Positions 5,631 through 57,573 of a stretch of DNA of 64,000 bases are shown in pieces (within the stretch, counting starts at the first letter, position 1; each line of letters starts with the position of its first letter). The translations under genes were made by a program, and so were the position numbers. The notes beneath the pieces are model-generated. The model had not been told where the DNA came from, did not search any database, and saw nothing but the letters and a program-made list of their open reading frames with translations. The stretch covers positions 7,814,501-7,878,500 of the forward strand of contig NC_088313.1 of assembly GCF_910592395.1 (NCBI RefSeq). The letters run 5' to 3'. This stretch comes from Lineus longissimus. Lineage: Eukaryota; Nemertea; Pilidiophora; Heteronemertea; Lineidae.

Positions 5631-5747
5631 AACAGCTGACCGCCATGTTTAGTGCTTTGTGTATACTGTGCATAGTTGAGAGTGAAATCTGTGTCAAATA
5701 TCCGATATTTTTAGCGATCTATTGTGTTTCTTTTGTTCTGTATTGGA

Positions 5748-8700
5748 ATGGCTGAAAAGCCAAAGAGACCGAGAAAGGACGGGGGCACGCGTTGTGCAGC
5801 ATGGGGTTGCGATAATTCGAAACTGAAGGACAATATCGGCGTGTTCGAATTTCCCTGTAAGAATAAGGAACCTGAGAGATTTTCTTGTTGGTGTAAAGTA
5901 GTGAAACGTACGCGTATGGACTTTCGATACGTCAAAGGAACGTCTAGACTGTGTGCTGCTCATTTCGATGACAGTCAGATTGCTAATCTGACGAGGATCA
6001 AGTCAATGAGGGAGGCGGACCCGGAGGCTGCGAGGAAGATTCCGTGGAGGTTGGCGAGTGACGCCAGACCAAACCCAGCCCTGATGTCCAAGCGACCGAT
6101 ACATGGTACCAGTACATCAACGCCCACACCTGTGACGCCAGCTGCACCACTTGCAGGGACTGAGGAGACCCCAAGGAGACCCCCGAGGACAATACCAAGA
6201 ACTAGGCTTCGGCCTGGGGCAGCCAAGCTGGAGAGGAAAAGGGTGAGCCTTTTTATCTACAAATTTTGCCTACCCCAAAACCGACTATAGACAAGAGCAG
6301 GCCCTACATCATATAGCATACATGTAATCAGGCCTGTCACTGTCAGTGCAGTGTCAATGCCAGGGCCAGGGATGAGGAGGAGGCTACACTGAGTCTTTTA
6401 ATTTGTATTAGCTGGCACAACTTACTTTTTATTTTATATAACTTCTTTTCAATTGCAGACAGTTCAAGATGCCATGATGGATGCGACCCCCATTCTCCCA
6501 GTTGAACCCCCAGTAGACTGTGGGACCGACATGAATCAGCCACTGCTTGATGGAGTTGAATCTGAACAGCAGGTTGGTAATCAGACTTAAACTTGGTTAT
6601 TGCATAGTATTGATAAAAGCAAGGCTAGGACTAGGTTATGCTAGAAGAGAGTGCCCAGTTGTCACATATGTGATGTGACTCATGCCCCGCACAGATCAAA
6701 ATACATGCTGACTGCCCTCACCCTTAATTTAATTAGCAACATGAATGGCAAGTCTGTTCTTTTTTCAGCCAAATGAAGTATCACACTCACAGGTTAGCCA
6801 GCTCCATATTCACCTGGCACGAAGCGCTATGAAAAGAAAACCACATCGCTCCATCAGGGTCCAGGCCAGGCCTACTACTTTCACACAAGGTGAGTGAATT
6901 AATCATATGCTGCAGGTTTTCTTCTGCTTGACCTCATCTTTGTGATTTTCTACAATACAAAATATGTACTGAATACCACATTGTAATGTAGATTGGTTCT
7001 GACTGTCACTTGGGATGGAATGCACGTAAATATTTCAGTTCATGACATTTTCCTCATGCAATGTCACCTTTTTTTATTCACAGGTACCCAAACAGACATG
7101 CTCCCCACATGTGTGTGCCAAGCTGAGGGTGGGCGGTCATCGGAGGTAGAACAGTTGCCCTCTGAGTCTGGGAGAGCTGTGACAGACGTGACACTGACAG
7201 ATGAGGAGTCTTTAATGGACACAGATGATGAATCCACCTATCCTGAGAAGGATGATGACCCAGATTATGTCCCAGATTCCGATGAATCCGAAGAGGAACA
7301 AGATTTTCTTGATGACCCTGTCGAGAAAGAGTAAGTGTACATTACATCATCAATCAATGCTTTGATGATGACTACCGGTACTCTCTGGAGTTTTTTTAGT
7401 ACTAAATGACATTGTGGTTGGGTGTGCCATATTGGCTCCATGGTAGTTTGTACTCAAGAGTTTTTCAATAGAAAGTTTTGATGAATGATTTGATTTACAT
7501 TATCGCTATTAGAATACAATGTATCTTTTTGTTGCAGGCAAGATCCAATGTCCGAGAAGAAGTACTTGGTATCTCCAGCTTGATGTCTTTGTTTGCGACG
7601 TGCCCAGTTTGTTGCTCAGTGTCATCCCGGCAGATAAAGCAGATTGGCACCTTCATTTCTGTACATCAGCAATGCACAAACCAGGGATGTGGCTTTTCCA
7701 GGTACGTTTTCCTTTTATCATGACAATGAACAAGGAATAAGTTGGCATGATGTATTGTTGGTCAACTGCAATCTTGAATATTGCTCTTTATCCACTGTTG
7801 ACATGAGTCTTAGTGGCCTTCAGAAATGAATGGAACACCAACTGTGGTGTTGTTAGTTACTGTACATTTGCATTGATACTCAATAGGGTCCTTTCTCTCC
7901 ATTAAATGTACATACATATATATGGTTATGTTTTTTCTTTCAGGTCTTGGAATAGCCAGTCAATGTATGGTAATTTGCCTGCAGGAAATGTGCTTCTGTC
8001 GAGTGCGATATTGTTCTCCGGGGCAATTCCTTCCCAGGTACTGCAGGTTTTTAATATACTTGGCTGCCAAACGATTTGCAGAAACACATTCTTCAATCAC
8101 CAAAGACAGTTTCTATGTCCAGCTGTGGAGGCCGTATGGACTGCAGAGGAGGGTGAAGTCCTCAATGCTGTCAAGGAACAGGACACCCCTCTGGTGGTTG
8201 GAGGTGACGGACGCTCGGACACTCCTGGTCATTCTGCCAAGTACGGATCATACTCGTTGATGAACCTTGACTCAAAGAAGATTGTATCTATGGAGCTTGT
8301 CCAAGTAAGTAGAAATCATTCATTTTTTGAATTTTTCAATTATGTAGCCTACACTATTGAAATTGGTGAAAGCTAATTAGTCGTATCCTATCTCTGGCTA
8401 CATGCTTTAAAAAGTTTCAGAAGTTAAATTTATGACCTAAGTCTAAAATGTTCTATTTATGATTGTTATTCTTCAGAGCACAGAGGTCAAGTCTTCAGTC
8501 CATATGGAAAAAGAAGGACTGATCCGCTGCATCGACTTCTTGAAGGAGCGGGGATTCACTCTGGACAAGATCATTACCGACCGCCATGTCCAAATACAGA
8601 AGTGGATCCGAGAGAATCTGCATGACACTGCACACTTCTTTGATGCCTGGCACCTAGCCAAAAGTGAGTATTTTCTGTAAACTTTGTAATGTAAATAAAC

Positions 8701-9802
8701 GAAACAATGTTACAAGATGATGCTAGGACGTCTAAATTAGCTTGAATATGACATTGTGAGTAATGTAGTTGAGTTTGATGTAAAAATAGCCCCCCCCCCC
8801 CCCCCCAGGTGGAATTTGTCTCTGTACAATGTTGTTGGTGACACATTTTCTCTTATTTCTGATTTGAAGAAGAAGTTGCTCAAACTGTCAAAGGAGAAGG
8901 GGTGCGAGTTAGCTGCCCAGTGGTGCAAGGCAATAATTAACCATGTGTACTACGTTGCCTCCAACACTCCAGAGGGCCAGGCCGACCTCATCATAGCAAA
9001 GTGGCTTTCACTCGACAACCACGTCCACAATGTACACAGAGGCCACGGAGAATTGTTTCCCAAGTGTGGTCATGGTAGACTGGGAAGGACGAAACAGAGG
9101 AGGAACAAGTGGCTGACTGCAGGTAAATAAGCATGTATATTTTGTTAGGTTTTCTTTAGGGAATGGCATTATGACACACCAATTAAATTCCTGGATTTCC
9201 TTCCTTTTTCCAAGAGGGTAGGATTTTCATCATGTTCCCATTGATCATTTTGCCAGGGAGGTCCTTATGTGTACATGTATTACTGTATTTTCAGGGACAA
9301 AGGTTTCCACACAGCTCACAAAGATAATAACTGCAAAAAGGTTTGTGAAGGACGTTGGCAAGATATCGTGTGGTCAGCAGACATCAGGTCTCGAGGCATT
9401 CTACAGCGTAATCAACCATTTTGCACCGAAGCAGTTTCATTTCAGTCATGAGGGCATGGAAAGTAGGTAAGTTATTGTTAATACGATGGATGGGTTGGGT
9501 CAAGATTACTGCAATGTTCGCGAGGAGAGGTCACACCTCATCCTGTGCATATACAATCTCTCTCGATGTACCTCTCACTGTCAGTGCATGTACATATCTA
9601 AATGCTGTGCAGTGAATGCAATTGATTTAAATATTTATTACGGTTCATTTCAGGCTCCGTGTGGCTGCCTTGCACTACAATGAAAATAGCAACAAGGACC
9701 AGGCTGTTACCCAGGACGGTCAGGAGAGATGGGAGGTGCTGTTTCCAAAGGTGAAGAAGGGTGGTTACTCAGTGCGTCCAGTCAGGAAACCAAGTACATA
9801 TG
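5748..9802 (+). pseudogene. Kolobok-A THAP-DDE transposase, exons 1-10 (frameshifted)
   Basis: Exons: 5748-6242, 6459-6572, 6769-6889, 7084-7330, 7538-7701, 7944-8304, 8477-8663, 8862-9122, 9295-9466, 9654-9802. The last exon is at 27241-27410. Exon 1 encodes a THAP zinc finger (CAAWGC ... LCAAHF). Exon 4 is acidic (DDPDYVPDSDESEEEQ). Exon 5 has CPVCC ... CTNQGC cysteines. Exon 6 has GGDGRSDTPGHSAKYGSY, exon 7 IITDRH, and exon 9 SGLEAFYSVINHFAP, which give a D-D-E set. Exons 6 to 10 match Kolobok-B exactly in length. Two lesions: exon 5 is 164 nt instead of 168, putting a TGA after KKYLVSPA, and the exon 8 acceptor is TG (8860-8861) instead of AG. The start MAEKPKRPRK is chosen by alignment to copy B. 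Confidence 0.8.
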
Positions 9803-10619
9803 GTAAGACTTTTTAGCTCAGCTGACAAAGTCAGCGGAGCTAGTCAAATAGCTATTCGATTGGTGTCCGTCCTTCCACCCATCCTGCCATCCTTCCATCC
9901 ATCCATCCATCTGTAGGCAAAGTTGGGCATTTTGTAATCATACAACCGAGGCACTTCAAATCTAGTCTTGCTTATAAACACCGCAGAAAATGTTGCTTTC
10001 GGAAAAAAATTTGGGCGATTCGACTCAAATTCAGCTGCCCAGGGGGCAAAATGCGTAAATGAAAAAACAATTTTTTGACGCTCTATTCCAGCAGATAAAA
10101 GCTCGAAATAAAGTTGAAAAGGTCTTCATGATACAGAAGTTTTGATATAATATAGATTAGTGTGGATTTATATCACCAGTTGGCGGTAGTGAGCAAAACT
10201 GTTGTTTGACCCCGGATGACCCCGCTTTAAATTTCCCGCCGCGAACTGACATGAAAACCTCGAACCTGAGGGAATACCGGACTGCTGGTATTGCCAGTGC
10301 ATCCACTGTATGAACGGCTCGTCTGGGGTAAATTGACGATCAAGAAAATGGCGGTGACCTTTTTATTTCTACCGGAGCGATGATTTTGTAAGTGACAAAT
10401 TTTCTTATTTAAGCCTTTACGGAAATGTATTTTGGTACGAAACTTCACACGTTTATAGAAAAGATCAACGAGAATGTGTTCAAATGCCCTCATAACGATG
10501 AGTTCAACGGAATTTTGTCAAAACAACCTTCGAATGGAGTCAACTTTCTTTGCGAAATTGAAGCGACGACCTCATTATTTATCGTAATTTATGCAGATCT
10601 GAGTCCAGCTGATGGGTGA

Positions 10620-12560
10620 TGTTCTGATTTGTGTTCAAACTATTGGAAACTTCGGAAATTAATTCTATTAGTTCTACTATTCTGCAGGAGTATATTATAG
10701 CCATTGATGTTGACAGCTAAAAGCACGAAAACTTTGTTTGTTTATAAAACTGTATCGAGTGTTATCGAATCGAATGGATGTGTCGATCGTCGGGGCGGAT
10801 TGATATGTGGTTGTGCGTCCAATGCGATTAGGTCATTCAGTTAGTTTGAGAAAGATCATGATCATGAAGATGCCTGTTGTGTTATCATAACCGGAATATA
10901 ATTTAAAGTTATTAGTGGTGTTGTCATTGCCATTTTTTGCATGGAATGATAGTTCGAGAGCTCTCATCGACGTATTCAGCATTGACGGAAAGTAGGTCCA
11001 GATTTGGCAACACGCCAGCTGTCGCACATGTTCGGCATGTTCACGAATTTGCACAGGTAAGAATGATGTTAGAAGATTTTATCTCAATGTAACTTTGATT
11101 TTCTGCCAGCCATTGGCCATAAGAACTCTTATGTGACGAAGTAGATTGTAGTATGAATCCCATAGTATTGTAACGTAGCGATGTGGTGCCGTTTGAGGCC
11201 TAATATATCCCGTAAATTTAGGTCGCCGAGGACGATGTTGACAACGAAACGATCATAAAATGGGGTGGCCGATTTTTCTGCACGTCTTGGCAATTTTGGA
11301 ACGAAAATTTCGGCTGTCGTAGTCATGTCAATGGCTGTGGCTGTGCTCAGCTGTAAATGTTACCATTTGGAGTCGTCGTGCCATAGTGAATTAAAATCTG
11401 TAGTTATTTATTAGAATGTTTAAGTAAGTGATGAAACTCCCAAGGTAATAATCGAGGACTAGAGATATAAAGTGCATGCCTCCTACAGTACGGTAAGCAA
11501 TGATTGAAGTGTCGTCGATCAATTTGGAATATGCTGAATAAGTGCAGGGATTCCTGTCCGGCATTCCATTTGTGAAGCCATTTACTGATTTAGGTCTCAA
11601 TGTTTACCTTTCTCTGGTTGGGAGTTTCATCACTACCTTCACTATGGTTGTGCAGTACAAATTTTCGAATGGAATAGAATGCTGGGACTAGCTCGGAAGA
11701 TTCAAGGACACCCCACACCCTATTTGATAGTACCTCATCATCAAGTCCACATTAACATTTAGGACATCCAGTGTTGTCAATAATGGACCAGTTACAGCCA
11801 CTCGGGTTTGTTGATTATAAACAAATTCTTTGTCCCCAGGTAAACATTGATCATGGACTAAATGTCCTACATGACCTTGATTCCAGGCCTGGTCATGTAA
11901 CATGCTGGTTATTAATTTCAAACAGGCCTTGTGTCCAGGTAGGAAATGAAATTCAACCATTCCACGCATTGTACATGTTGTTGTTACACTTCTACCTGAA
12001 GACAAGGCTTTGTAAACAAGGGTATGTTTGTAAGAGGTCCATTTTCAGGAGGTTACTTCTACACCACTAACTCATCTTTAAGCCCAGCTCTTGGCTCGCA
12101 TCATGTGGGCAGGATTGGCTGTTGAGTGTTATGGTTCAGTTTGTGAGATGGCCTAATTTAATGAGGTTACACTATTTTTTTGAAAATCAGCCCACAGGAC
12201 TGACTTTTCAGGAAATTAAGTGTGCCCTTCGAAAGTTACATCTCTTAGTGGATTTGCTTCCATAGATGCCTTGTTCAGCACATCACCTGATCAAGTACAC
12301 ACTGTATCCGGTGGTGTACCTAGCTAAGTCCTGAATAGGGGAAAAATCTATAGTCTGTTTGATAATACTATTTCGCCCATCGATGTCAGCCTTCTTTATT
12401 TGGTGTTCATAACCCTGCTCTTTCTTTACAGATTCACTGTTGTTTAATAACCTCCTTATTTTATTCCTACAGATTTCATCATGATTCTACACACACCACT
12501 TTTCTTTGCTCGTCTTGATGCTTAAGTAACGTTTCATTTATACGTATTCCAGGTTCATCC
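10620..12560. other. Non-coding interior of the Helentron-like element
   Basis: I see no convincing gene on either strand here. The short ORFs have no recognisable motif. The stretch ends at the start of the RPA-like gene. Confidence 0.4.
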
Positions 12561-12565
12561 TCAAC

Positions 12566-14202
12566 ATGGCTTCCGCAACATCAAATTCAAATCAAGACAA
12601 ACGTAAAGCAGAAGAGGTCGACAAAGTCGGATATATCCACAATGTATCCCCTATGAAGCGTAGCAGAACCAATCATGACTACTTTAACTCCACGTTGCAA
12701 ATAGGACCAAATGCATATACGAACATCTTAGGATTCCACAAGAAACATCTAGCCCAACTGAAAGAAGCAGCACAACACAAGTAAGTATAACACTAACAGT
12801 CAACAGCGAACGACGCCATCGTCATGTCAAATCATAATTTCACAGATGCCAATATTATTGGTAAATTATTAATTTTCTCTTCAATTAAAAATAACCATAG
12901 AAGACTTTGTTCCCTGGAAACACGAAAAAAAGACAATCCCTCCTCTTTACAACAATTTCAGTATTACCTGTCATCATGTCTTATTATTTCAAACCTTCAT
13001 CTTCAACTATCAACATAACAAAACTTTGCATGTATTCTTCTATTTCAGAAGCCCAGTTAAAATAAACAAGGCTGCACTCGTACCTAATTTGAAAGAGAGC
13101 AACAAAATGGATATAAAGATACAGTATCCAACACAGATTTCAACTCACCCAACGGCGCTGTCATTCAAGTATAAACAACCACAGGAAGAAAAGTCACTCA
13201 CCATGCCAACCATCAAAGATATCAAAACCCATCAAGCAATTGAACGACAGAAGGTCAGTTCTTCTCGACAAATAATACATTTCTAATATTGCTCAATATA
13301 ACTAAAACACAACAGTAAACCTTAGAGCTTACTTAGACTATAATTTACAACTACGTACTATAGTACACATCAACCTCGTCAAGTCCAATTAACTTGCACC
13401 TTAAATCAGATTCATGATTAATCATGGCCAACTAATTACAACTGAGTCTTTAGATAGTTATCCACTAAAATCTTAACAATATCAAACACTAATTCAGGCA
13501 CCTTACGTTTTATCCCTAATGCTTGGTGCTTTCCTTTTTCAGCTCAATGTCACAGGCCGAATTACAAAGGTTCTGGAAGAAGAATCCATACAGTCAGTGT
13601 TTGGCACGGACCTCGCAAAGAAAGTATTTGCCCTTGCCGATGAAGAAGAAACCATCGCCATCGCTCTGTATAGTACCTTGATACCTACAGTCGAATTGGA
13701 CAAAACGTACTCTTTCAAAAATGTATCTATCCGCCAGAACAACGAGACAAAGACCCTCACCACAACACCAACAACTGAAATAACGCCAGCTGATGATATC
13801 ATTGCTTGTGACAAACTTCCAAAATGTGAAAATGTTTCACATCTCCTGCTGGCAACTTGTCAACAAATTGAAGTCTCCAGTTCAAAATCCTGCAGCAGTT
13901 GTAAAAAGAATTTACCAAACCCGAACATCCTGCAAGCTAAAACATTCAAATGCCCCAACTGTAACATGCGACAAATCACTGAACTTGTCACAAATCATAT
14001 TAAAGCCAAGATGAACATCAAAGACAATGGCAACATTTATCGCTTAACTGCCTTCTCAGATCTATTAACTAACTTCCTGAAAGCCAACTTCATCAACCTG
14101 GATTCAATAGAAGATATGGAAGTTTTCTTCCTAGAGTTGCCACCTTTTCATTTATCATACAACTCCGCTACCATGGCTGTAACATACATGGCCACTCATT
14201 AA
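12566..14202 (+). CDS. RPA1-like OB-fold / zinc-ribbon protein (359 aa)
   Basis: Three exons, 12566-12780, 13049-13253 and 13543-14202, have GT-AG junctions and join in frame to 359 residues ending in TAA. Residues 1-70 are basic and disordered-looking (KRKAEEVDK, MKRSRTNHD). The middle has the pattern NVTGRITKVLEEESI ... EEETIAIALYSTLIPTVELDKTYSF, typical of an OB-fold. The C-terminal half has CSSCKKNLPN ... CPNC, four cysteines like the zinc ribbon in the third DNA-binding domain of RPA1. It probably binds single-stranded DNA. RPA-like genes are known cargo of Helitrons and Helentrons, which fits its position. No Rep/helicase partner was found, so the element alone could not move. It looks intact; the start is the first ATG of the open frame. 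Confidence 0.6.
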
Positions 14203-14565
14203 CACTTGAACAAGACAAAAGTCCAGTTCTGTTCTGAGTTCATACTTCATATGCCCCTATCTGTACATTTGCTAAAGAACGTACATGTATGCTCAGTTCA
14301 TCAACCTATCATAGTTATCTTAAAGTTACATGTTATTATTTCATTTCATTGTGATCTGTGATTGATTTGACTTGTGCAATTTGTTACATTTCTTCAATAT
14401 CGAACTGTAATAGAGGTTTCCCACATGACATTTGACAAACACCTCCCAGTGCATTTCCTCTACGACCATATCGTAACAACATAATAGAATACTAGTATGC
14501 ATTTGCAGGTCACCCTCTGATGACAGTGGGATTTCTCTATATCATTGTTATCTTAAAGTCACATT

Positions 14566-14625
14566 TTTGGCTCACCGTAGGGGAGTCGATACAATAGCGC
14601 TGTGTCCATCGTCGTCGTCCATCGT
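14566..14625 (+). mobile_element. Helentron-like 5' end fragment
   Basis: TTTTTGGCTCACCGTAGGGGAGTCGATACAATAGC followed by GTC triplets resembles the 5' end of the GGTGAGC family (E1, E3 and the element at 38950). The matching 3' end is not clear, so this may be a truncated or nested copy. Confidence 0.45.
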
Positions 14626-14829
14626 ATGCTGTGCTCTGTTTTATTTCATTTTGTTTAATCTGTAATTCTATATCTAATTCTATATGTAATTCAAATGTGA
14701 TTCACACGAATCAAAACTATATCAGGTGGCACACAAAAAACAAGTACACAATATATTTTGTTATCAGTCAAAAAGTCTCCATCGCATTGTAATGCAATTT
14801 CTTGCACATTTTTTTGTTTGACATCTTTC

Positions 14830-15365
14830 ACATCTTCTGATAAGAGTTTCAATGAAACATCTGAAATGTTTTAGAAGTAATAGGCATTTGAAAAATTGGA
14901 CAGAAAAGTGTAATGCCAGACCTTCAATAACCACAAAAACAAATTTCTGGCTATAACTGCCATAATATTGCTGGTATGATTATGATTTTGATGTCAAAGT
15001 ATACGTTGTCGTGACCAAGAAATCATTTAAACTTGGTTTAGGAGTTGTTACACCATTGCATCATGGGAATTGCTTCTGGTTTTTTAGGCCAATTCACAGC
15101 CATCTTTGATTTCCCATAATGCGATTGTGGTGCAACTCCGAAACCTGGCTTAAATGATACCTTGACCCAAAAAACCTATATTTCGACACTAAAATAGTTA
15201 TCCTATCTGGAATATTATGGAAGTTATAGCTAAAAAATATGTTTTATGAATCACCCTACATGTCATAGGCCTGGCATTTTCATATCATACCTCAATTTTT
15301 CAAATGCTAGTAACTTCTAAAATATTTTAGGTTTTTCATTGAAATTTCATAGTAAGGCGAGAAAG
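14830..15365. repeat. Foldback element (long imperfect inverted repeat)
   Basis: The left arm (about 14840-15050: TTTCAATGAAAC, TTTTAGAAGTAATAGGCATTTGAAAAATTG, CTGGCTATAACTGCCATAATATT) is matched in inverse orientation by about 15120-15350. The loop is near 15070-15110. This is a palindromic MITE-like element of about 530 bp with no coding capacity. Its target duplication was not determined. Confidence 0.55.
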
Positions 15366-15852
15366 AAGTCTAATAATTATGAAATGGCATTTCAGCATGA
15401 TAAATATTTCCATACTTATAATGAAAACGTTTGTGGACTCATTTTTTTCTGCACCACCCGATATATATACTTTGAAAATGATTCCAATCACCTGCTGGTC
15501 AGGACAATTTGATACCAATAAAAAAACATCTCATTTTTCAACTCTTGGTTCATTTGTTCAATTATTTTCCTGTCTTCAGCATCTAAGCTATGCTACATTG
15601 CCCCAGTATCAGTAAGATAACCACAGATTCCAACTACCACATATGGACCACTTCCAACTTTCCTAATACAAGTAAGAAATATGGTAATTTACGTGTTCGC
15701 TAAACACCTTCAGCACTCCTACTCTGCAATCAGGACAATATAACAAAAGACATCTTCAGTCATCATATAAAAGCTACTTCATACAGCCTGTCAGCTCAGT
15801 ACAATCCCCATGTGCCTTTTTTTAATTGCTATCAATGGTTGCATGTCCTGTC

Positions 15853-15882
15853 GGCAAGCGCCAGCCCCATGGGCCTCTTGTT
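15853..15882 (+). mobile_element. Second Helentron-like 3' end
   Basis: GGCAAGCGCCAGCCCCATGGGCCTCTTGTT is a diverged version of the 3' end at 27044-27075 and 38351-38382, keeping the GGGCCTCTTGTT terminus. It is either the true end of the RPA-carrying element or a decayed nested copy. Confidence 0.5.
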
Positions 15883-16441
15883 AAATCCATTGTCGGAGTT
15901 TGAAAAAGGATTTATTTTCGAAAATCAATTGGTCGTTTTATGTGGTGCTGCTGTATCTCGTCATCTTCAGAAGCTACTGTTTTGGATTATGAATCTGCCA
16001 ACCATACATTTTCAGAAAATGGAGTTACTAGTATATGACCCCTCTTAAAGCATTTTCTTGCCCTTAGATTGTCTGGACCCGGTAATTCCTATTATGCCAG
16101 TGTTTCTATCGGAAGTAATCATGCTCACATATCTCTCATTTCCAGATTTTCAAATCGATTGTAAAAAGTTGGCCTCATCTTCTGCTTCAGACATCATTAG
16201 TACTAACTATTACACCAACCTACAATAAATGTCTCCTTAACTTCACTCTGGCAGGAACCCTGACCTCTTTAAAGGGAAGGACCAATCCTCACCCACAACT
16301 TCATGAATAAATATGCTTTGGGGTCTTAAAAATCAATTTCAATTCATTTTAATCGAAATGCACTGTTAATTTGATCACAATTCTACGATTTGTTTGGCTT
16401 GAATTTGGTTTAATTCGTCGTCTGCTAAAAACTTGACATCA

Positions 16442-16475
16442 GCGCCACCACACGTACGTGACGTCACGGCATGTA
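16442..16475 (+). promoter_or_regulatory. Subterminal promoter block (Kolobok-B left)
   Basis: GCGCCACC (16442-16449), TGACGTCA (16459-16466) and CATGTAT lie 45 bp before the ATG of the P2X7-domain gene. The order equals that of the other Kolobok ends in this window. Confidence 0.6.
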
Positions 16476-16510
16476 TACAATTTACGATCAGCTGTTCAGA
16501 TCCACGCAAA

Positions 16511-17892
16511 ATGATGTCTTCGAGTGATGATTCTTCAAGTCTGTCCAATATAAGCGATAATTTCAACGATAGCAATGAGAGTAGGGGCTCCGAATCTATT
16601 GATCTGGAAGAGGAAGAGTTCGAAGAACAGATTGGTGCCGGTGGGGCGGTGAAAGGATACCAATTCGAGCCGCACGGCGATGAAGATGGCAGTTCTGAAT
16701 TTTCTTCAAATTCGTCTTCAGAATCCGCGGAGGAAGATGCAAATATGGCCAAGTGGAGGGAACGAATGACCACAACGAAATGGTAATTAGTTTTTCCTTT
16801 CAATGTCCTGGGTTGCCAGTCATCGTTTCTCAAATCTTTCGTTGAATCATTGACGAATTTGGCCATAATTAAACATGTTCAAAGATACCAGTTCACCCAA
16901 TGTACAAATCCACTAGCCTACATTACATACATGGACGCACTAAAAATATACACAACTACTACAGGCATGACAGGTGAATGCACTCATCTCCAGTCAGTGT
17001 TGGGAAGTCAATATTGACTGTAGCTACTATATAGGGCCTATGTCTTAGTCCTGTTTAAGTAACAATGTTTAATACCTCAGAATGTGAATGATGATAGACC
17101 ACTGGTAGTGGTTGTTTCTATCAAATGTTATTTCCTCAAAAAATCTAATCATCACTCCACACACATTATAATTATGTTCATTATTTTTTAGGTGCGAATG
17201 TGACAAGAAATGTGTTAACTCACTGATACCAGAGGAGAATGCCTGCTGCCGGGAGTGGGCCCCAATTGATGGAGTACTCGAGGAGTACAACTGTGACTTC
17301 AAGCCAGAGATCGCATGCATAACGGACCATCCTGCTTTCCACAGCTATTGCCTCGATGTCTGGTCCCTGCAGCTTGCATACAGGCTTTTTCATAAGAAGG
17401 AAGTGCCAGGAGCAATAAACTTGTAAGAAGACTTCTTCTATTTTTATTTTTTTATTAAATTATAATTATTCACTGTATTAGTGTGTACACTTTTACAAAA
17501 GAAGAACAATATGGCATCAAATTTGTTGTGTATCATTGTACCAGTAAACCTTTTTAAACCACAAAGATAATTTTTATCTAATGGTCAAGCATATTTTCTG
17601 CTCCATTAGAATTCAAGCCTTACCAGCTCTGACCAGTACACGCAGGCCTAAATTATGCCATCTATGACAGAATCCATTTCTTCATTTCAGGAAATACAGA
17701 CATGTTGCATATCGGAAACTAATCCGATGGTGTTGGAGATATCTTGGAGAAGGGAATCGTGTGCCATTACCAGCCTGTGCTGTTCATTTAATCCGTAAGA
17801 CTTTTCCTCCAGAAGGCGAAATTGTGGGCTTTAAGTATCCACCACTCAAGAACAAAGGCACTAAGAGAAAAAGGCGTAATAATAGTCAGTGA
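16511..17892 (+). CDS. Kolobok-B accessory protein with P2X7 intracellular (ballast) domain, 234 aa
   Basis: Exons 16511-16782, 17192-17422 and 17691-17892 join in frame. The N-terminus is Ser/Asp/Glu rich (about residues 1-60) and ends in GGAVKGYQFEPHGD, followed by AKWRERM. Exon 2 is cysteine rich: CECDKKC, PEENACCRE, then ITDHPAFHSYCLDVWSLQLAYR. Exon 3 has KYRHVAYRKLIRWCW, LPACAVHLIRKTFPPEGEIVGF and a basic tail KRKRRNN. This order is the known signature of the P2X7 receptor C-terminal cytoplasmic domain, a zinc-coordinating fold also found in many stand-alone invertebrate proteins. No transmembrane segment or ATP-binding ectodomain is present, so it is not a receptor. It converges on the transposase with stops 29 bp apart. 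A role in transposition (DNA or partner binding through zinc) is inference. The start at MMSSSDDS is chosen because exon 1 then equals the 272-nt exon 1 of Kolobok-A. Confidence 0.85.
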
Positions 17893-17921
17893 CACTGTTC
17901 AATGTTCAAACAGACTGGTCT

Positions 17922-20900
17922 TTATAATTTCTTGAAACGCTTGTACCTCGCCAAGTAGCCTTCTACTGCTTCACGTTTATCAGGATGTACATATTTGCTA
18001 CTCAGAAAGTCATGTTTTCGTTTGTTTGTCATCTTCATGTTGTTCTTACATCTATGATGAGCTTCATCCATCAGTCTCTTTGCATAGCCTAAAAATAGAA
18101 ATTGTAATTTATGTAAAGAAATATGTTTAGATAATAATAATATTAAAGTTTTCATAATACTGAAACGAAAGTAATTCTTTTTCAATCTGAAGTCTAATAT
18201 GTTCGCTCCTTTGAAAAATCATGCAAGAAATAATTCATAATGTGGAAAAGTAAGCAATCATTGCAAGAGGGGTAAGGGGTGTATCAGCTCCTGTCTATAA
18301 TGTCCCTTCCTTTGGGTACCTACTTGAAACTCTGGTGAGAGTCATAGACACTCTGTACATTCATGTCACCTGTAGATGACAGCACAGTATTTTATTGTGG
18401 AGAATTATGTTTAATAGCAGTGCTGGGACTGTTTGAGTGGTAATGGGTCTGATCAGAGTTAAGTACATGAACTTACCATATGTGCTCTCTTTCCTCACTG
18501 GTCGAACAGAATGACCCCCCTTCTTCACTTTTGGAAAGAAGACGTCCCACCTCTCCTTCCCATCTTTATTGACTGCCTGCTCCTTCTTGCCATTTTCATT
18601 ATAATGTAAGGCAGCAATACATAGTCTGAAATCAAACAGAAAAAAAATGAAAATGCATCGTAGGCCTGTGACAGCGTAGGCCTGTAACAGCTGAAGTAAG
18701 CCAGTGACTGGGCAGTGGGTGGCTGACTTACTTGAGCATTTACAGTATGTGGCATTGAAAGTACACTGGAACAAACATATTGACCACTTGTGAACCATAG
18801 GCATCTTGAAGCCAATAATAGTTATAGTGCCATTCATGTCAACAAAATAAGTTAAGTACGTACTGGTAAACATGTACATGAAGATTGAATTCAGTAGCTA
18901 GGGGATATCAGTTTTCATTATTGCACCCCCTGCACTGCCCAACTGTTCAGCATCACTGCACTGATTATTTAAATGATTCAAAAACTGTCCTACCTGCTTT
19001 CCATGCCATCAGGGAAGAAATGGATCTGTTTTGGTGCGAAATGGTTCACCACACTGTGAAACGCCTCAATTCCAGATGTTTGTTGACTACAGGATATCTT
19101 TCCAATATCTTTGACTAATCTTGGGGCAGTGATGATTTTGGTCAATTCATTGGACACCCTTGTTCCTGAAAATGAAAACAAAACTTACCCATACAGCATG
19201 AACAATTCACAACTTATGCTGAATATAGAGGTCCCTCACATGAAAAGTATTTGCTCAGACTTGCTCTACCATTTAACACAGTTCACAATTATTGCCATTA
19301 TTTAGAATTCCTTTTTGCCATTGTGTTATTACCCCCCCCCCCCCCCCAAAAAAAATAGCCTAGTTTGCTCTTACCATAACATGGAAACCCCCCCCCCCCC
19401 CCCAGGAAAATATTCATTACATTACAGCCAGATCCCGTTAGTGAAGGTTAAAAAGCGAACCTCAGGTTGCAAAGGCAAATGCATTGAGGCCGTGAGGTTG
19501 GAGTTTCTCTTTGAATTGCCCGATGATGTTGTTATTAGGGTAATCAGGCATGATCAGAGATTGGCGCAATCTAGCCTAATCTCCTATGGCATGTCTGGCT
19601 GACCTACCACAGCAGGTGTTACGGAATTTGTTATCGTTACTCCTGCCTGTAAGTGGCACATCATCTGACAAAATCAGAGTGTACTCAGTGTAGGCCTAAT
19701 GGCAATGCTTCAGATGAAGACCTGATCGGTCCTGTCGGATGCTTGTTTCTATATTGCAATATTGTAGTTGATCAAAATATGGTGTTAATTCTAGTTTAAC
19801 CCCCTGTGTGTCTGCATTGGTGCAGGATGCATGACTGCTTTTTCGGACTGTTTGTTTATAGTAGGCCTATGTGAAAAAAACATTTCTTTTTTTTTCATAG
19901 TTTTTTTAATGAGACTGGTTTAAACATGTCATTACAGCCGTTAGGAGAGGTCAAAAAGCGAGCCTCAGGTTGCAAAGGCAAATGCATTGATGCCTTGAGG
20001 TTCACTTTTCTCTCTGAGTTGCCTGATGATGTTGGTATTGGGGTAATCAGGTGTAATCACAGATAGTCTAATCGCCTCTGGCATATCTGGCTGACTGCAA
20101 GCAGCACGTGTTACCTATATATAAGCTGACAAGATGTTGAGTTTAGTAATGGTCAACGGTGTAACTTTTATGTGTTTGCTTTGTGGTTATGTTGGCTGAA
20201 CTTTTGAAACGACTTTTAACCCCTCAGGACCATTCTCCTTAATGTCAAGCCATGCTGCTGCGTAAAATGTAGTGTTGTTAAAGGGAATATCTAGTAGCAG
20301 CGATAATAAACGAGATTTAAATTTTTGGTTTTTGCGGGCTACTTTAAAAACAAAAATTAACTTAGTCACAGCATTTTCTTCTTCTATATGTGTGTATGTG
20401 AGGGGGCGTCTACACTTAGCTTCAATGTTTTGACATTGCTCAGGTTCCGGACACTTGCGTATGGGTGGAGGCTACGGAAACAGTACCCCTGGAAGTTTAT
20501 GGCTTTCAGGGGGGTTAGAGATAAAGATATATACATGTAAAATAATCATTTGTTCCCTGGACATTCAACTTTTGGAGTTCCCGTCAGAAATTTTAGGGAA
20601 ATCCCAAGGGTGTCTATTACAGTTCATGCCTTTGCGTCACCATTATATCCGGCTCCACAAACCCATGACAGATTCCATGCTATATTCCTGTTCAATTTCA
20701 GTTTCAAGCTAACTGTGACGAAGCGTTTGCCATACAATATTCAAATATCCCAGTACATTTATCCTGTGATAGAGTGGTCTAGTCTATAAAAGAGCCAATA
20801 TTACAGCCTTGCCTCTATCTCGACCTAACTTGAAAATAGTACACATCCCTACGGCCTATATAATGTATGCTATTGTGTGGCCTTACTTACTGACACAGAC

Positions 20901-23900
20901 TCCTTGTAGCCAGGTCAGAGCTATCCGTCCAATTTCAACTTAAGCTAAAAAAATTGCAATGCATCAGGTGTGGATAGACTGCCTATCATGTGATGTCCAG
21001 TTTAGCATGAAGCATGCTGTTTTATCTGTTCTGTTAACACACAGAAAGTGGGTAGAAGGCCAGGGGCAGGGGTAGACGGGAGTGAGAACTCTGGCCTTAT
21101 GATGGTCATCCTCGGTCATCTTGAAGTCACTATCACTATCAGGTTTTCAGTTCTTTCATGACAGACTCCTTCATGAATATGATGATGAATACTTGTTTCA
21201 TCATCTCTGCCTCAGCTTCCAATATTTCATGGACATCAGATAGAAACCAATGCAGAAGCATACACTGCTTCTCCGCATCAAAATCATTGAAGATATACAG
21301 CAACTGTTCCTTGACCAATCCATGACTCATCATTATATAACATTATATAACAATTCATGGCAGGAATTCAGCAACACATTGAGTGCATTCGATTTGGTAA
21401 CCGGAAAAACGCCGACCGACCGACCGACCGACCGACCTACTCGCCGACTCTGACAACCTCACTTACGGCATCCCATTCGCGCCTCCTAGCCCGGTAACCG
21501 GAAAAACGCCGACCGATCGACCGACCGACTGACTGACCTGCCAACCTACCGTCATAGTGCAGTATCCCTTTCGCTTCTCTATAGCACATGTATCTGTGTA
21601 GTGCCCAGCGCAATGGACGTGATGGAGTCCGACGTGTCTGACAGCAGCATCTCCAGTCAATTATACCGGGAAAACGAGCCCACGCGGTAAGGAACTGATA
21701 ACGATACTCTAAAGATATGCTTTGTCTACATGGTTGGTGGATATAAAAACATGATTTGGGCCTAATCTATGCACTGTAGTTTTTTTACTCGAGTGTCTCG
21801 ACCGATGCAATGCATGAACTGCAACGCGCAACATGCATTTGTTGTCATTTGACTAGCGCACGTGCGCTTGTTTACAATTTCATTTCACGTGACCTGCTAT
21901 CGTGGATTGGATATATCACATTGACTTATGAGACCTGTGACTCAACTACGAAACTCCTTGGGTTGGTAGGTCGGAAGGTTGGTCGGTCAGTCGGTCGGTC
22001 GGTCGGTCGGTCGGTCGGTCGGTCGGTCGGCGTTTTTCCGGTTACCATTCGATTTAATCCACTAATCCACATACCCATATTGCACCAAGTGTAATGAACC
22101 CAGTAAGACAGGTAAACCTAACACAGCAGGTGGTGTCTGTAGTGCAATAGCAGATGTCAAGGAGGAAGGCCTTGGAGTGCAATCAATCAGCTTATCTGAT
22201 CTATTATAAACATCCAGCTGAGAGGCATTCCTCCTATTTTGCTCATATTTCGCTAACGGGGTCTGGCTGTCATGAAAATACAATACCTGCAGTAAGCCAT
22301 TTTTTGCTGTTGCGTCGTCGCTTTCGAAGTCTACCGTGGCCACACTTGGGGAACAGGTTGCCATGACCTTTGTGGATGTTGTGAAGGTGATTATCCAATG
22401 ACTTCCATTTGGCAATTATCAGATCAGATTGACCCTCGGGGGTGTTCGATGCCACATAATAGAGGTGGTTGGTGATGGCCTTACACCACTCCGCAGCTAT
22501 TTCGCACCCTTTCAGCTTCGCAATTTTCAGAACCTTCTTCTTCACATCTGGAAAAAAGTAATCCCAATTAACCATTGATTGAATGAACAATTCTGCATGT
22601 CTTTTGCTGAACTCAAGAAGGAAATAAGACATTCATATGACACCCAAGTACCAAGTCATGGATTCACACAATCGAGGGCTAGCACTAGCAGTATATGCAC
22701 ATTACATGTACTGGTAAACAATATTTGACAATGTCTACATATACAATAGGCCTACAAGCTGAGATGGAATTTCATTAAGCACTCCGTGCAGGAGGTGAAA
22801 GATTCTTGTAGAGTGGCCTGAAATCAATATTTAGTGATTTAATTTTTTTACATCCGTATGAAAACATGTAGGCTTCATGTACTTACTTTTGGCAAGATGC
22901 CATGCATCAAAGAAATGTGAAGTTCCCCCAAGGTTTTCTCTGAGCCATTTCTGTATTTGACAATGTCTGTCAGTGATTATCTTGTTAATCGATACATCAT
23001 TTTCATCAAGGATGCGTACACAGCGGATCAGCCCTTCTTTCTCCATATGAACTGAAGATTTGACCTCTGTACTCTGGAATGGAAATGTCATGGTACCGGT
23101 AAATACAACTTTCATGTGCCATGTTTTGGACCTATGATTTTTCTTTGACTTTGGCAAAATTCGACTTCTGTGAGTTCTACTTATTTAGGCAAGGTTTTAA
23201 TTTACTTGAAACCACTGGCTCAAAAGTATTTACAAACAGCCCTAATGCCTTGTTTCTCATTGTTTGTGAGGAAAACCACAGAAAAACTTTTCAATATCAA
23301 TAATAACTTGGTATAGAGGTGAAAAAAACTTACTTGGACAAGCTCCATGGCTATGATCTTTTTATTGTCAAGGTCCATGAGGGAATACGATCCATACTTG
23401 GCTGAATGGCCAGGTGTATCCGACCTGCCATCACCACCAACGACAAGAGGGGCATCACTCTCCTTAACGTCAACTAGTAGTGCATGTTGTTCTTTGCTCC
23501 ATACTTCTGTCATGGCTGGGCTAAGGTACATGCGCTGGTGATTAAAGTACGTTGTCCTGGAGAAGGCCTGGCAACCAAACAACTTTAGAAAACGAAGAAT
23601 TTTGCCTGGTATGCTGCCCGAAAACAGTATGGAACCTGACAAGAGGATGTTCCCTGCTGGTACCTTGCCACACATCGGTTGGCTGTGCCAAACCCTGGAA
23701 GAAGAAATCACCTTACAATGCATATACAATGGAATATCATTTGAGCCATCTGAAATACATACACTTACCGGTAAATTATTTCAAAGAAAGCAGTGCACAC
23801 TCTAGTAAATCATATGTAATTCACAATGGGCTGTCAGAGTGGCACATTGGCAACATCGGCGCCTGTCACCACTGAGGTCCCGAGTTCGATTCCCAGTCGA

Positions 23901-26682
23901 ATCCGGTCACTTATGTGATAGAGAGGCGACTCTTTGACAGCATAGGTTTTCCCGGGACTCCGGTTTCCTCCTACATAACAATAGCATCACCCAGTTTAAT
24001 TAAATGAGTAGCTATAATGCCTTAATTAGACGCTTGCACTCCTCGAATAATATTTTAATCCACAATGCTTATGTACCAGTAATGAGGAAATGATAATTAT
24101 CAGTCCATATGAAGAGACATAAAAATAGGCTTATTTGACTCAAATGAAAACTATACCGTACCGTGAAAATCCACATTGACTGTTACTGCAGTGCTGCTCA
24201 ATCGATATGAAAGTTCCAATCCTTTTGATATGCCCCGATGATTCTGATGAACACACTGGACATGATGCAAACAAAGTCATCAGACAAGAATGAAAAACGA
24301 AATACTTTTCCTCCGAGACTGGGTCTTTGCTGGAAATGAAAATTACAACACATGAAGGACAAACAGACAACTGACAATTTGATACTAGCACATCTGAAAC
24401 AAAATCGTCCTCAATCTGGTATTCCTGCCAAAACAAAATACATGTAGCTGTTCAGTAGTAGAATCTGAGAAAACCAATTTGCTTTAGTTCAACATAAAAT
24501 CTTTGTTATTATTCTTAACTTTCAAAGGAAACAGTCAGCAGCACTTACTTTACTTCATTCTGCCAATCTTCGAATTCCCTTTCATCACAATCATCAGATT
24601 CATCAGCTGAATTTGGTTCATAATCTGGATCAACAGAATCATGCATTTCATCCTCTGTTTCCATGACCGAGTCGTCATCAGTTTCAACAGGCATGGCAGT
24701 ACCACTACAAACATCTGGCTCCAGTGGTGGATCTGGCAAGTCACAGCCCTGGGGACAATTGCACATACATTTACATGTATCAGTTTGAGTTCCTGAAAAC
24801 ACAGAAAAGGCCAATGAAAAACACAGTGAATGGAGAAACTGGTCCAGCTACCACCACCACCACAATATAGGGGCAACATTATATTAAGCCTACATGCATA
24901 ATGCCATAATTGAAGAATTGCACCATCTATACCAGAATACATCCTCATGTCCATACATCCTCATGTCCATGTTGTCCAAGACAGTTGCTTTGCTAGTACT
25001 AAATCCCAAGATTAACTCAGTTCACTGTCCACAGCGGATTGGCACTTAACTGCTTCAGTTATGACAACAACCTCCACAGGAATTGATTATAACAAAAAAA
25101 AACAGATAATTGACATTGTGATTGGCAAATACATGTATATTAACCACTTGTGAATTCATGAAATTTACAAAGACTTTACACTTACAGCTCAGCTGTGGTT
25201 TTGGAGGGGCAAGATTTTTTTCATCCATTGTGCATGTTTCATATATTGCAAAGAAATCTTAAAATTACCTTGTGAAAAAGTGTTTGGCATAACTTGTACG
25301 TGAAAGGAACGATAAGACGTTCTCTTAGTCTGCACGTATTGATCCACAAGCTCTGGCTGAAATACAAAAATTTGAGATTAGAATGAGGAATATCATTTCA
25401 GACACAAAATATACCATGTGCTGGCCAACATGATGTGTACTGCACTGAACATGACATGACAACAATGCTCCAGAAATTCAAGTATAGCTGTTATTGACAC
25501 CAATCAGACAAATGTCAGACTGCAATTACTTGATATCATTCTTTTCCTGATAGTGATGTCAATGTGTGATGATGGCAGTATTTGAATGAGACAACTCTAG
25601 GGAAAAAAAGAAATGAGTGGGATGGCCATGTTTCTCACCAACTTTGTCATGTTTGTATCATTGCATTCTATCTCCATCGCCTCTGAGTCTGCCTCACATG
25701 ATGATGGGCCTGGTACTGGTGATGATGGTGCTGTAGTGGAATCAGCTGACTCAGTAATTCCAGAACTTGGAAGTAATACTTCCATGGCTTCTTTGACCCT
25801 CTGAAATGGAACAATATTTTTATCAGGGGTAAGGTCATAAATAATAAATTTATTGGCTTAACTCAACTGCATTATCCCCCCACCATGGGTAAGGGTTAGG
25901 GTTAGTTGCCTATATTTTTCCCATACATAAATTCTAATACATTTCACACTCAATGGTTGGGGATAATGCAAATATGCACCCCCCCCCCCTCCTCCCATTC
26001 CACACACTCACATGACATTGTGTGTTTACTTGTCTGACAATGACTTTAGTCTAAGTACAAGTAGTAGGCTAGGGCCTAGGCCTAGCTAGGCTATGCTAGA
26101 GCTATGCTAAGTTAAAGTAAGTTAAAGTTGGCAAACTAGACTAAATCATGAAATAAATACAATGAAATATAGAATAATGTATGATGATGCACGTACCTTT
26201 CTCCTGTCTTTTTTGGTTGCCCAAGGTCTAGAAGTTGGGGGTCGTCTTGGGGTTGAACCACCGGCGAAGGAAGAGGAAGAAACAGAAGGCCTAACGTTAG
26301 GACTAGGGGTGCCATGGGTTGGCCTTTTAGGGAAGAGGTCCGGATTTGGCTTGGCCTTGGGCACTAACCTCCACGAGATTTTTTGAGCCGCCTCTAGACC
26401 CTTATCCTCCAACATAATCCTGATTTGCATCCAGTTATCGATTTGGTCCCGATCGAAATGGTCGCCACAAAGCCGTGATGTGCCTTTGACGAACTTGAAA
26501 TCCTGGCGAGTCCTCCGAACTGCTTTGCACCAAAAATCAAATCTTTCCGGCGACTTCTCACGGGCAGGAAACTCGAACACTCCAACACAATCCTTTAATT
26601 TCGATTTATCACAGCCCCAAGCGGCACAGCGAGTTCCCCCATCTCTCCTCTGCCTCTTCGGCCTCTCACTAAACTCCTGCAT
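17922..26682 (-). CDS. Kolobok-B THAP-domain DDE transposase, intact 814 aa
   Basis: Eleven exons on the minus strand: 26682-26197, 25800-25639, 25356-25269, 24792-24549, 24329-24162, 23694-23334, 23073-22887, 22547-22287, 19165-18994, 18625-18477, 18088-17922. They total 2445 nt, all phases agree, and I found no internal stop. Residues 19-76 form a THAP finger (C19, C24, C72, H75, W51). An acidic stretch follows, then CPVCSSESS ... CSNSQCG, a probable zinc pair. Catalytic candidates are D471 (GGDGRSDTPGHSAKYGSY), D538 (IITDRHCQI) and E686 (SGIEAFHSVVNHFAP). Also conserved are AHFFDAWHLAK-like SHFFDAWHLAK and ALHYNENG. Kolobok transposases combine THAP and DDE domains and target TTAA, as here. 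It would bind the TIRs and cut and paste the element in the nucleus. Confidence 0.85.
19320..19403. repeat. Two poly-C tracts
   Basis: Two runs of C (about 19331-19347 and 19388-19403) lie in the long intron between transposase exons 8 and 9. They are simple sequence and may be length-variable or poorly resolved. Confidence 0.8.
19448..20098. repeat. Diverged direct repeat pair (about 155 bp each)
   Basis: 19448-19605 and 19947-20098 share CTCAGGTTGCAAAGGCAAATGCATTGA, TTGCCTGATGATGTTG and GGTAATCAGG. They are short dispersed-repeat copies within the intron. The class is unknown. Confidence 0.65.
21396..22046. mobile_element. MITE with 9-bp target duplication and GACC-repeat TIRs
   Basis: It starts GGTAACCGGAAAAACGCCGA and ends with the inverse complement ...CGTTTTTCCGGTTACC. 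It is flanked by the 9-bp direct repeat ATTCGATTT (21387-21395 and 22047-22055). Long (GACC)n/(GGTC)n arrays follow each TIR. A second internal copy of the TIR begins at 21490. A 9-bp duplication suggests a Mutator-like origin. It sits in Kolobok-B intron 8. Confidence 0.8.
23835..24060 (+). mobile_element. tRNA-derived SINE
   Basis: A-box-like TGGCACATTGG (23839-23849) and B-box-like GAGTTCGATTC (23881-23891) are about 40 bp apart. A conserved body follows with GCGACTCTTTGACAGCATAG and CCCGGGACTCCGGTTTCCTCC, as in metazoan SINE core domains. The 3' end is uncertain. It lies in the Kolobok-B intron between exons 5 and 6. Confidence 0.65.
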
Positions 26683-26789
26683 TCACGATTTTGAATAGAA
26701 TATCGGCACACAATAGCAAAATAATCGCGACCCAGATATCAATATCACTGCTTTGTTAACACAAAATGGACGATCTGGATACAATGGAT

Positions 26790-26830
26790 ACATGCCGTGA
26801 CGTCACTTGTCCGATGGTGGCGCTGCAGTC
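26790..26830 (-). promoter_or_regulatory. Subterminal promoter block (Kolobok-B right)
   Basis: On the minus strand GCGCCACC is followed by TGACGTCA (26798-26805) and CATGTAT, about 115 bp before the transposase ATG. It mirrors the left end block. Confidence 0.6.
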
Positions 26831-27240
26831 TCACTCTTAGCAGACAATGTTTTCAGCCAGTTTTCCAGTGTCTAAAGTCCCGTCATTTGGGTTAAAATAA
26901 TTTGATAAACAAGGGGCAAAGTTTTTGAGAGAGTTGTTTATTGTACAAAGCATCAAATACAAGCAATAATTGCATGGTAAAAAACCACCGGTCCTTCCCT
27001 TTAACACTTGCTTCCCTAGTACACATACACGATGTACTTAAATCAGCTGAGCGCCAGGCCCTTGGGCCTCTTGTTACCTTTTGGCAGTACTGTAATGTCT
27101 CCTGCATCAGCTTTTACTGCAGTTTCCAACATGATGATTCCACTATGGCAACATCCGCTATATTAAGTTACTGAACAAAGAATGTTTTATCACCTTGTAT
27201 TTCACTTTTCTCACAAGATATTTCAATTTTCTCTTTACAG

Positions 27241-27410
27241 GATATACACAGAGACTACTCCTCGAGGTTCAACGCAGGTGTGTGAAGAATTTGAAAGCTG
27301 CCAAGAAAGGGAAATTTGCTGCACTTTGTGATAACTATGAGCATCCAGAGAAAGCTGAAGCTGTTGACAACTACAAGACCAAGTTCAAACGTTTCAAGAA
27401 TACAAAATAA
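27241..27410 (+). pseudogene. Kolobok-A transposase exon 11 (C-terminus)
   Basis: Begins after TTTACAG and encodes GYTQRLLLEVQRRCVKNLKA ... KFKRFKNTK then TAA. It aligns with Kolobok-B exon 11 (GYAKRLMDEAHHRC ... RYKRFKKL). It is separated from exon 10 (9802) by 17.4 kb of later insertions. Confidence 0.8.
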
Positions 27411-27436
27411 TCATGCAGTCACTTGTTCGATTCAGT

Positions 27437-28569
27437 TCACTTCTTCGTCTTGAGTGGTGGATACTTGAAGCCGACAATTTCACCTTCTGGAGGAAAGTTC
27501 TCACGGATTTTATGAACTGGCTGGCAGTGGCACACGGTTTCCCTCTCCGAGAATTTTCCACACCCAGCGTACCATTTGCCGATAGGCGACGTATCTGTAT
27601 TTCCTGGAAAATAAGAAATGGATCAATTAACTTGTTTGATGCGACTGATTATACTTTGAATTCATTCTGAATGATATCTGTGTTCATTTGTTTTAATTTG
27701 TACATATTTGTAAATACCTGAATCGAAAAATGAAATAATAAATTTGTACAGAAGTGAAATGAAATTTTACTTACTGATTCATTGTCCCTGGCACCTCTTT
27801 CTTGTGGTATAGTCTGTATGCCAGCTGGAGTGACCAAACATCAAGGCAATTTGAGCGAAAGGCAGGATGGTCAGTAATACAGTCTATCTCCTCAAAATCA
27901 GCTGCGTACTCGTCAACAACGTTGTTCACTGGCACCTTCTCCCTGCAGCAGGCATTTTCCTCTGGCACTGTGGAATTCAGACAGTTCTTACATTCGCACC
28001 TGGAAAATAAATCAGCATTTGTAGAAGGAGGACCTTTCAACTACAACACATTATTCCATAGACTATTACATGATTAATAGCCTACATGTAGGCTGCAGGG
28101 GTGAGAAAATAAAGCCTCAATAATGTGAAAGTTTATAATGAGATGTGTACATCATGACATGGTGTACAAAAAGACCTGCAAATATGTATGTGTTGTGACC
28201 CAAAGTGTATGCCTACTGAACTGAATGAAAACACATCTGAAACAACCCATGAATGCCTTTTCAGTAGCAAGAAATGCGGACAATGTCTCATATTTACCAG
28301 GACGTAGTGTGCATGCGTTTCTTCCATTTAGCCAGGTTTGCATCTTCCTCTTCATCACTGTTGTGTTCGTCAGTGCCCGATTCAGAAGAGCTGTCTTCAC
28401 CACCAGAATACGGCCCAAACTGATAGCCCTTGACTGCCCCGCCGACAAGAATCCTCTTGAACTCTTCGCCACTTAGATCAACCGATTCGGAGTCCGTTGA
28501 GGCGCTATAATCTGAGATATTGGAAGATTCTTCGCTGGAAATGTCCACTTCGTTTACACTGTCTGCCAT
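27437..28569 (-). pseudogene. Kolobok-A accessory gene with P2X7 intracellular domain (frameshifted)
   Basis: Minus-strand exons 28569-28298 (272 nt, equal to copy B), 27999-27775 and 27603-27437. Recognisable parts: an acidic N-terminus with GGAVKGYQFGPYSGG and AKWKKRM; CECKNCLNSTVPEENACCRE; ITDHPAFRSNCLDVWSLQLAYR; KYRYVAYRQMVRWVW; FPPEGEIVGFKYPPLK. Exon 3 lacks 5 nt present in copy B just after LPA (near 27525), which shifts the frame and gives an early stop. The gene converges on the transposase C-terminus with stops 26 bp apart, exactly the Kolobok-B arrangement. Confidence 0.8.
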
Positions 28570-28801
28570 GTTGATAATCACAGCTGATCGAGTGGGATAC
28601 ATGTGATAACGTCACCAGCTGGTGGTGGCGCTGCGGTCGGTTTTCATAGCAGACGACGCATTCACTTCGGTGAATAAAATACTAAAATGCCCATGCAGAA
28701 TAAATTACGCTTTATTTTGCTGTAAACAGCGTTTTAACCTATAGTTATGATCCTAACACTACCTTATTCGCAAGGTAGCACATGAAGATTGGGCACTCCC
28801 T

Positions 28802-35850: not shown

Positions 35851-35856
35851 TCTTAA

Positions 35857-57570: not shown

Positions 57571-57573
57571 AGA

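Follow-up and report, generated by a model that had tools for sequence, protein, structure and literature searches.

An intact-looking Kolobok transposon, probably of the Kol0 kind, with a P2X7-type second gene in Lineus longissimus

A 64-kb stretch of the Lineus longissimus genome, referred to in its entirety as the window, contains a candidate DNA transposon in which a transposase gene lies tail to tail with a gene for a short protein resembling the cytoplasmic ballast domain of the P2X7 receptor. Is the P2X7-type gene part of the transposon or a neighbour trapped between its ends, and what might its product do? We put the probability at close to nine in ten that this element, here called Kolobok-B, belongs to the Kol0 kind of the Kolobok superfamily as an autonomous cut-and-paste transposon that looks intact, with a transposase and KolX as its standard genes. 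The evidence for this consists of the ends, the target duplication, both open reading frames, a second family with the layout preserved and selection acting on both proteins.

An initial sequence-only reading had seen in the pairing of a transposase with a P2X7-domain protein what would be an unusual two-component transposition system, and could not say whether it was already described. The pairing was in fact published in 2022 by Kojima and Bao as KolX of Kol0 (PMC9587614). The available portion of that paper states that Kol0 Koloboks as originally reported encode a transposase and KolX, that KolX adopts the fold of the P2X7 cytoplasmic ballast and conserves seven cysteines, that vertebrate P2X7 arose via fusion with a KolX, and that the link between ballast domain and Kolobok had not been pointed out before. 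The domain itself had been described across animals by Rump et al. in 2020 (PMC7016195, likewise consulted in part). Since the pairing is in print, Kolobok-B adds a further member to an already described kind and not a new kind.

Ends, genes and classification of Kolobok-B

The components of the element are as follows.

16273..27000, complete Kolobok-B: 10,728 bp flanked by TTAA, 11-bp inverted ends that begin with AG, both spliced genes open
16269..16272, TTAA target-site duplication, left
27001..27004, TTAA target-site duplication, right
16273..16283 (+), left terminal inverted repeat AGGGAAGGACC
26990..27000 (-), right terminal inverted repeat AGGGAAGGACC (forward-strand letters GGTCCTTCCCT)
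16511..16782 (+), KolX exon 1: acidic/serine-rich N-terminus, GYQFEP motif
17192..17422 (+), KolX exon 2: ballast cysteines C92, C94, C98, C109, C110 and C133, assigned to P2X7 positions by motif
17691..17892 (+), KolX exon 3: C197 as the seventh ballast cysteine, a GFKYP motif, the basic KRKRR tail and the stop
17922..26682 (-), transposase gene: 11 predicted GT-AG exons, 814 aa
Transposase exons 1-6 (-): 26682-26197, 25800-25639, 25356-25269, 24792-24549, 24329-24162, 23694-23334
Transposase exons 7-11 (-): 23073-22887, 22547-22287, 19165-18994, 18625-18477, 18088-17922

The apparently intact two-gene Kolobok proposed at 16273-27000 was confirmed in its coordinates, its TTAA copies and its 11-bp inverted ends. 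Both genes, said to join in frame, could be rebuilt from exon-intron structures predicted from sequence: the GT-AG model of the transposase gave 814 aa, and the three predicted KolX exons joined in frame to give a protein of 234 aa (KolX-B). The 29-bp distance between the stops was also borne out (17890-17892, TGA, plus strand; 17922-17924, TAA, minus strand). Intron 8 of the transposase gene (19166-22286) houses other repeats: a pair of inverted 29-bp arms (19417-19445 and 22249-22277) encloses further arms that start with TGGTAACCGGAAAAACGCCGACCGACC at 21395 and 22047 and carry CCGA/TCGG runs.

TTAA target-site duplications and termini of the form 5'-RR ... YY-3' (AG...CT) were found in Kolobok-B as well as in two further elements described below, Kolobok-A and Kolobok-C. 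Inspection of the 814-aa protein by eye revealed the catalytic motifs DGRSD at 471, ITDRH at 536 (D538), DAWH at 559 and GIEAF at 684 (E686) in this order, which places the C/DxxH signature of Kolobok DDD/E transposases between the second D and the E, while a Pfam profile search (E up to 0.1) gave no match to the DDE part. The THAP assignment of the earlier reading was upheld by the same kind of search (residues 19-110, E 1.7e-7); this domain is usual in Kolobok transposases (PMC6004289). By analogy with the superfamily, the THAP domain would read DNA near the ends of Kolobok-B, and the DDE domain would excise the element and insert it at TTAA. No relatives of the transposase were found in prokaryote genomes, and none of one of its exons or of KolX in viral contigs, collections not expected to hold animal transposons. 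Rfam gave no match at gathering thresholds.

Two other identities were considered and ruled out. THAP was the sole Pfam match of the 814-aa protein (E up to 0.1) and the ends begin AG, which excludes piggyBac, the usual ends of which are unlike these. KolobokP resembles Kolobok-B in carrying a second gene, on the opposite strand and downstream of the transposase, but that gene encodes a His-Me finger nuclease, while the second gene of Kolobok-B is KolX and matches P2RX7_C only; KolobokP is moreover described with long terminal direct repeats of ~450 or 660 bp, and Kolobok-B was searched for inverted repeats only (KolobokP according to the available portion of PMC9587614).

The P2X7 C-terminal assignment of the 234-aa protein passed its profile search, in which residues 74-216 matched P2RX7_C with E 9.8e-12; the frame surrounding exon 3 matched by itself (E 6e-6). 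All four distinct sequences among the PDB matches at E up to 1 were P2X7 (best 8.7e-9). By motif alignment, cysteines occupy all seven ballast positions, with C92, C94, C98, C109, C110, C133 and C197 of KolX-B corresponding to C477, C479, C482, C498, C499, C506 and C572 of rat P2X7 (rat numbers counted from the KolX-B/PDB alignment). HMMER instead paired P2X7 C498/C499 with the stretch around C125 of KolX-B; this pairing was set aside in favour of the CCR motif at C109/C110, because Kolobok-A retains CCR and has no C125. D, E and S together make up half of residues 1-85.

A P2X7 ballast-like KolX with seven cysteines is the hallmark of the Kol0 lineage, and the putative Kol0 placement of Kolobok-A and -B rests on this gene and its motifs. 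Compared by description, the Kol0 lineage (Kolobok-1_XT and relatives, in the available portion of PMC9587614) shares with Kolobok-B the TTAA target, 5'-RR ends, a DDE transposase and a separate KolX gene with the seven ballast cysteines. The Xenopus XKol elements (PMC6004289) also have a THAP plus DDE transposase and, in the table rows consulted, a similar size (~9-12 kb), AG ends and a TTAA target; the main text of that paper mentions neither KolX nor P2X. Likewise short are the ZCD/ballast-domain proteins including Nanor, which share with KolX the cysteine clusters WCxCx2-3C, CCR, CIT and PxC...IR..FP but are described, in the available portion of PMC7016195, as animal genes, whereas KolX is a transposon gene.

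A second family and the divergence of the two genes

A tblastn search with both Kolobok-B proteins revealed a second gene pair in the window, with transposase pieces at 5751-9804 and 27240-27398 (+) and KolX pieces at 28569-27443 (-). Both transposase-bearing copies found by tblastn in the window thus carry KolX.

5409..28801, Kolobok-A: interrupted by Kolobok-B, 13-bp ends with one mismatch
5405-5408 and 28802-28805, TTAA copies of Kolobok-A
5748..27410 (+), transposase gene of Kolobok-A: frame shifts in exon 5 near 7572; the last exon, 27241-27410, lies past the Kolobok-B insertion
27437..28569 (-), KolX gene of Kolobok-A: frame shifts in exon 3

Because the tblastn pieces flank Kolobok-B and the ends of Kolobok-A at 5409 and 28801 adjoin TTAA, Kolobok-B was placed, in reverse orientation, in the last transposase intron of Kolobok-A. 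What had been said of this older relative held: the pair, its orientation and the 26-bp stop spacing (stops 27408-27410 and 27437-27439) are kept. The frames, however, are broken in both genes. In its KolX the frame shifts just before 27517, in exon 3, an exon that has also lost the seventh ballast cysteine; the frame around exon 2 alone matched P2RX7_C with E 0.0045, under the Pfam curated cut-off, and the basic tail, clear in Kolobok-B (KRKRR), is short (KTKK). No counterpart of exon 3 of the Kolobok-B transposase was seen by eye in the three frames of 6590-7083. Kolobok-A looks like a dead copy, while both Kolobok-B genes read through under the predicted splices.

Comparison of the two families revealed nearly the same divergence in both proteins. 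Identity was 63.3% over 706 compared codons for the transposase and 63.5% over 189 for KolX. A crude Nei-Gojobori count between two sequences gave pS 0.79, pN 0.22 and pN/pS 0.285 (bootstrap 0.25-0.33) for the transposase and pS 0.70, pN 0.26 and pN/pS 0.375 (bootstrap 0.29-0.47) for KolX, with synonymous differences at or near saturation in both genes. Omitted from these ratios were exons 2 and 3 of the Kolobok-B transposase and the part of exon 5 before the frame change of Kolobok-A, as well as the KolX residues between exon 2 and the frame change in exon 3. For the ballast pieces only (99 codons), identity was 76% and pN/pS 0.24. Selection thus appears to have maintained both genes during the divergence of families A and B, and the equal divergence together with the pN/pS of both proteins indicates that KolX is a selected part of the transposon. 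We regard this as the strongest evidence here for KolX as a working transposon part.

The competing account sees in the P2X7-type gene a host gene or a chance neighbour that became trapped between the ends and does nothing for the transposon. Ballast-domain genes have been reported as short and free-standing in many animals and, in several invertebrates, as being in linkage with two conserved markers (available portion of PMC7016195), which would fit such an origin. However, place, orientation and similar stop spacing are common to two families in which 37% of the compared residues differ, and both proteins are equally diverged between them. Kojima and Bao moreover report KolX in the Kol0 group (PMC9587614, consulted in part), and a box shared by the ends of both families and a KolX-like remnant in a third element, both described below, also speak against a trapped gene. 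This account was rejected on layout, divergence and box, and we give it almost no credence. The earlier claim that the P2X7-type gene belongs to the transposon therefore stands, on one layout in two families, equal divergence, purifying selection and the shared box.

The mirrored box, convergent transcripts and a third element

The region before each gene was found to contain a related block in both families.

16442..16467 (+), box GCGCCACC...GTGACGTCAC before the KolX gene of Kolobok-B
26797..26823 (-), mirrored copy before the transposase gene of Kolobok-B
5590..5613 (+), Kolobok-A box, transposase end
28609..28631 (-), Kolobok-A box, KolX end; it ends GTGACGTTA and lacks the full palindrome

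Between each end and the start codon, a block of ~60 bp follows the order GTCTGCTA...GCGCCACC...GTGACGTCA...CATGTATC. The exact pattern GCGCCACC-N5-15-TGACGT matched four times in the 64 kb, once at each of the four Kolobok-A and -B ends and always pointing inward, with none elsewhere in the window and none in 100 shuffles. Local alignments of the ends scored 39 to 63 in all six pairs, against a largest value of 30 in 300 shuffles (five pairs against shuffles meant to keep dinucleotides, the sixth against simple shuffles). When the Kolobok-B box was scanned over 850 overlapping 300-base tiles, the best matches were the other A and B ends. GTGACGTCA, which we take to be a CRE-like palindrome, gave eight matches at five places with 0.27 matches expected; the places are three of the A/B ends, position 58336 and a site in Kolobok-C, and the full palindrome is absent from the KolX end of Kolobok-A. 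We infer that the mirrored box is promoter-like and perhaps a transposase site; that it would act as a promoter before each gene, switching both on together, and maybe also be bound by the transposase, seems to us evenly poised. The available portion of the Kol0/KolX description (PMC9587614) includes neither the stop spacing nor the mirrored box, both of which are present in Kolobok-A and -B, and the term 'tail-to-tail' is absent from the main text of that paper.

The hexamers AATAAA and ATTAAA, the only two sought, first occur 249 bp (KolX) and 129 bp (transposase) beyond the stops of Kolobok-B, within the span of the opposite gene, and 326 bp (transposase) and 494 bp (KolX, inside the Kolobok-B insertion) beyond those of Kolobok-A. 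With hexamers 129 to 494 bp past the stops, the predicted convergent transcripts of the two Kolobok genes should overlap in a sense/antisense arrangement.

The third element is much shorter.

35857..36819, Kolobok-C: 963 bp, perfect 23-bp ends
35853-35856 and 36820-36823, TTAA copies of Kolobok-C
36167..36307 (+), KolX-like N-terminal remnant: acidic/serine run plus GYQFEP, by eye

An open run ending GYQFEPEYEERGR resembles, by eye, the N-terminus of KolX. The remnant was not matched by tblastn with KolX-B at E 0.01, and the Kolobok-B transposase gave no tblastn match to Kolobok-C. Alignment of its KolX end with the KolX ends of Kolobok-A and -B yielded scores of 16 and 24 with shuffle maxima of 28; as this is not above shuffles, Kolobok-C was treated as a separate family, recognised only by its TTAA copies, AG ends and the short, putatively KolX-like run.

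Several other frames were noted elsewhere in the window. The GTGACGTCA copy at 58336 falls between a 267-aa cysteine-rich frame (57523-58326; no Pfam match at E 0.01) and the DDE_Tnp_4 transposase frame that it precedes, 58371-59471 (+, E 4.3e-20); another DDE_Tnp_4 frame lies at 43050-43925 (+, E 2e-38), and we presume both to be Harbinger-like. A 934-aa open frame at 30288-33092 (-) with DUF1759 (E 3.1e-9) is probably, by our assumption as to type, the gag-like part of a BEL/Pao-type retroelement. The 394-aa frame at 55548-56732 (-), with a weak RVT_1 match (E 0.0026, under the curated cut-off), is perhaps a non-LTR retroelement fragment. In the 356-aa frame at 67-1137 (-; no Pfam match at E 0.01), the C-terminal stretch from DQGLIPTDYCWSCKEDLL recurs without change in the 201-aa frame at 1199-1804 (-), consistent with a local duplication or repeated element.

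What KolX may do

The ballast core by itself does not tell the function of KolX, and among the titles and abstract beginnings listed from the open-licence literature none concerned what KolX does. In the functional sense, the two-component transposition system of the initial reading would be a putative one. Among the roles considered, we tentatively favour, at somewhat less than even odds, that KolX would be a zinc-binding nuclear protein assisting the transposase as part of its complex; the layout of such a helper would comprise an acidic, probably disordered N-terminus, the ballast core and the basic tail. A regulatory role ranks second and guanine-nucleotide binding a distant third.

As a regulator, KolX would control transcription from the mirrored boxes or repress the element. 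The combination of acidic N-terminus, zinc core and basic tail would also be in keeping with a nuclear regulator, and the boxes precede both start codons. Truncated P-element products repress their element and offer a parallel, and binding of the boxes by KolX is putative. The Pfam search of KolX-B matched no known DNA-binding fold, which counts against this role, while a role in transcription has been hypothesised for the related zebrafish Nanor (available portion of PMC7016195). On balance we consider a regulatory role unlikely, though clearly less so than the one that follows.

KolX could alternatively act in trans as the part of the transposase complex that binds guanine nucleotide, comparable to the GTP-binding insertion domain of the P-element transposase. 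The P2X7 ballast binds GDP via R546, H547, R574, R578 and K583 (PMC7016195, consulted in part), of which, by motif alignment, KolX-B retains three (R546, H547 and R578) and Kolobok-A two (R546 and R578), and the P-element transposase, likewise a THAP plus DDE protein, pairs its ends GTP-dependently (PMC7776569, consulted in part). Outside vertebrate P2X7, however, only R546 and R578 of the five are conserved (Rump et al., same portion of PMC7016195), and the GTP cofactor is called unique to the P element within the transposase/integrase superfamily (same portion of PMC7776569), so that we rate this role as quite improbable. Slightly more doubtful still is its extended form, in which KolX would be the trans-acting guanine-nucleotide-binding subunit of a two-protein transposase, the GDP-binding tail of P2X7 would be a cofactor of transposition that has been domesticated, and the mirrored boxes would drive transcription of both subunits convergently from the two ends.

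The helper role thus remains our preferred, tentative reading. Relative to the available portion of PMC9587614, the mirrored box and the finding that KolX and transposase are under equal selection add a little. Kolobok-B, whose ends are clean and whose genes are both open, is a good starting point for probing the role of KolX, which would bear on why vertebrate P2X7 has a zinc- and GDP-binding tail, transposon-derived according to Kojima and Bao (PMC9587614).
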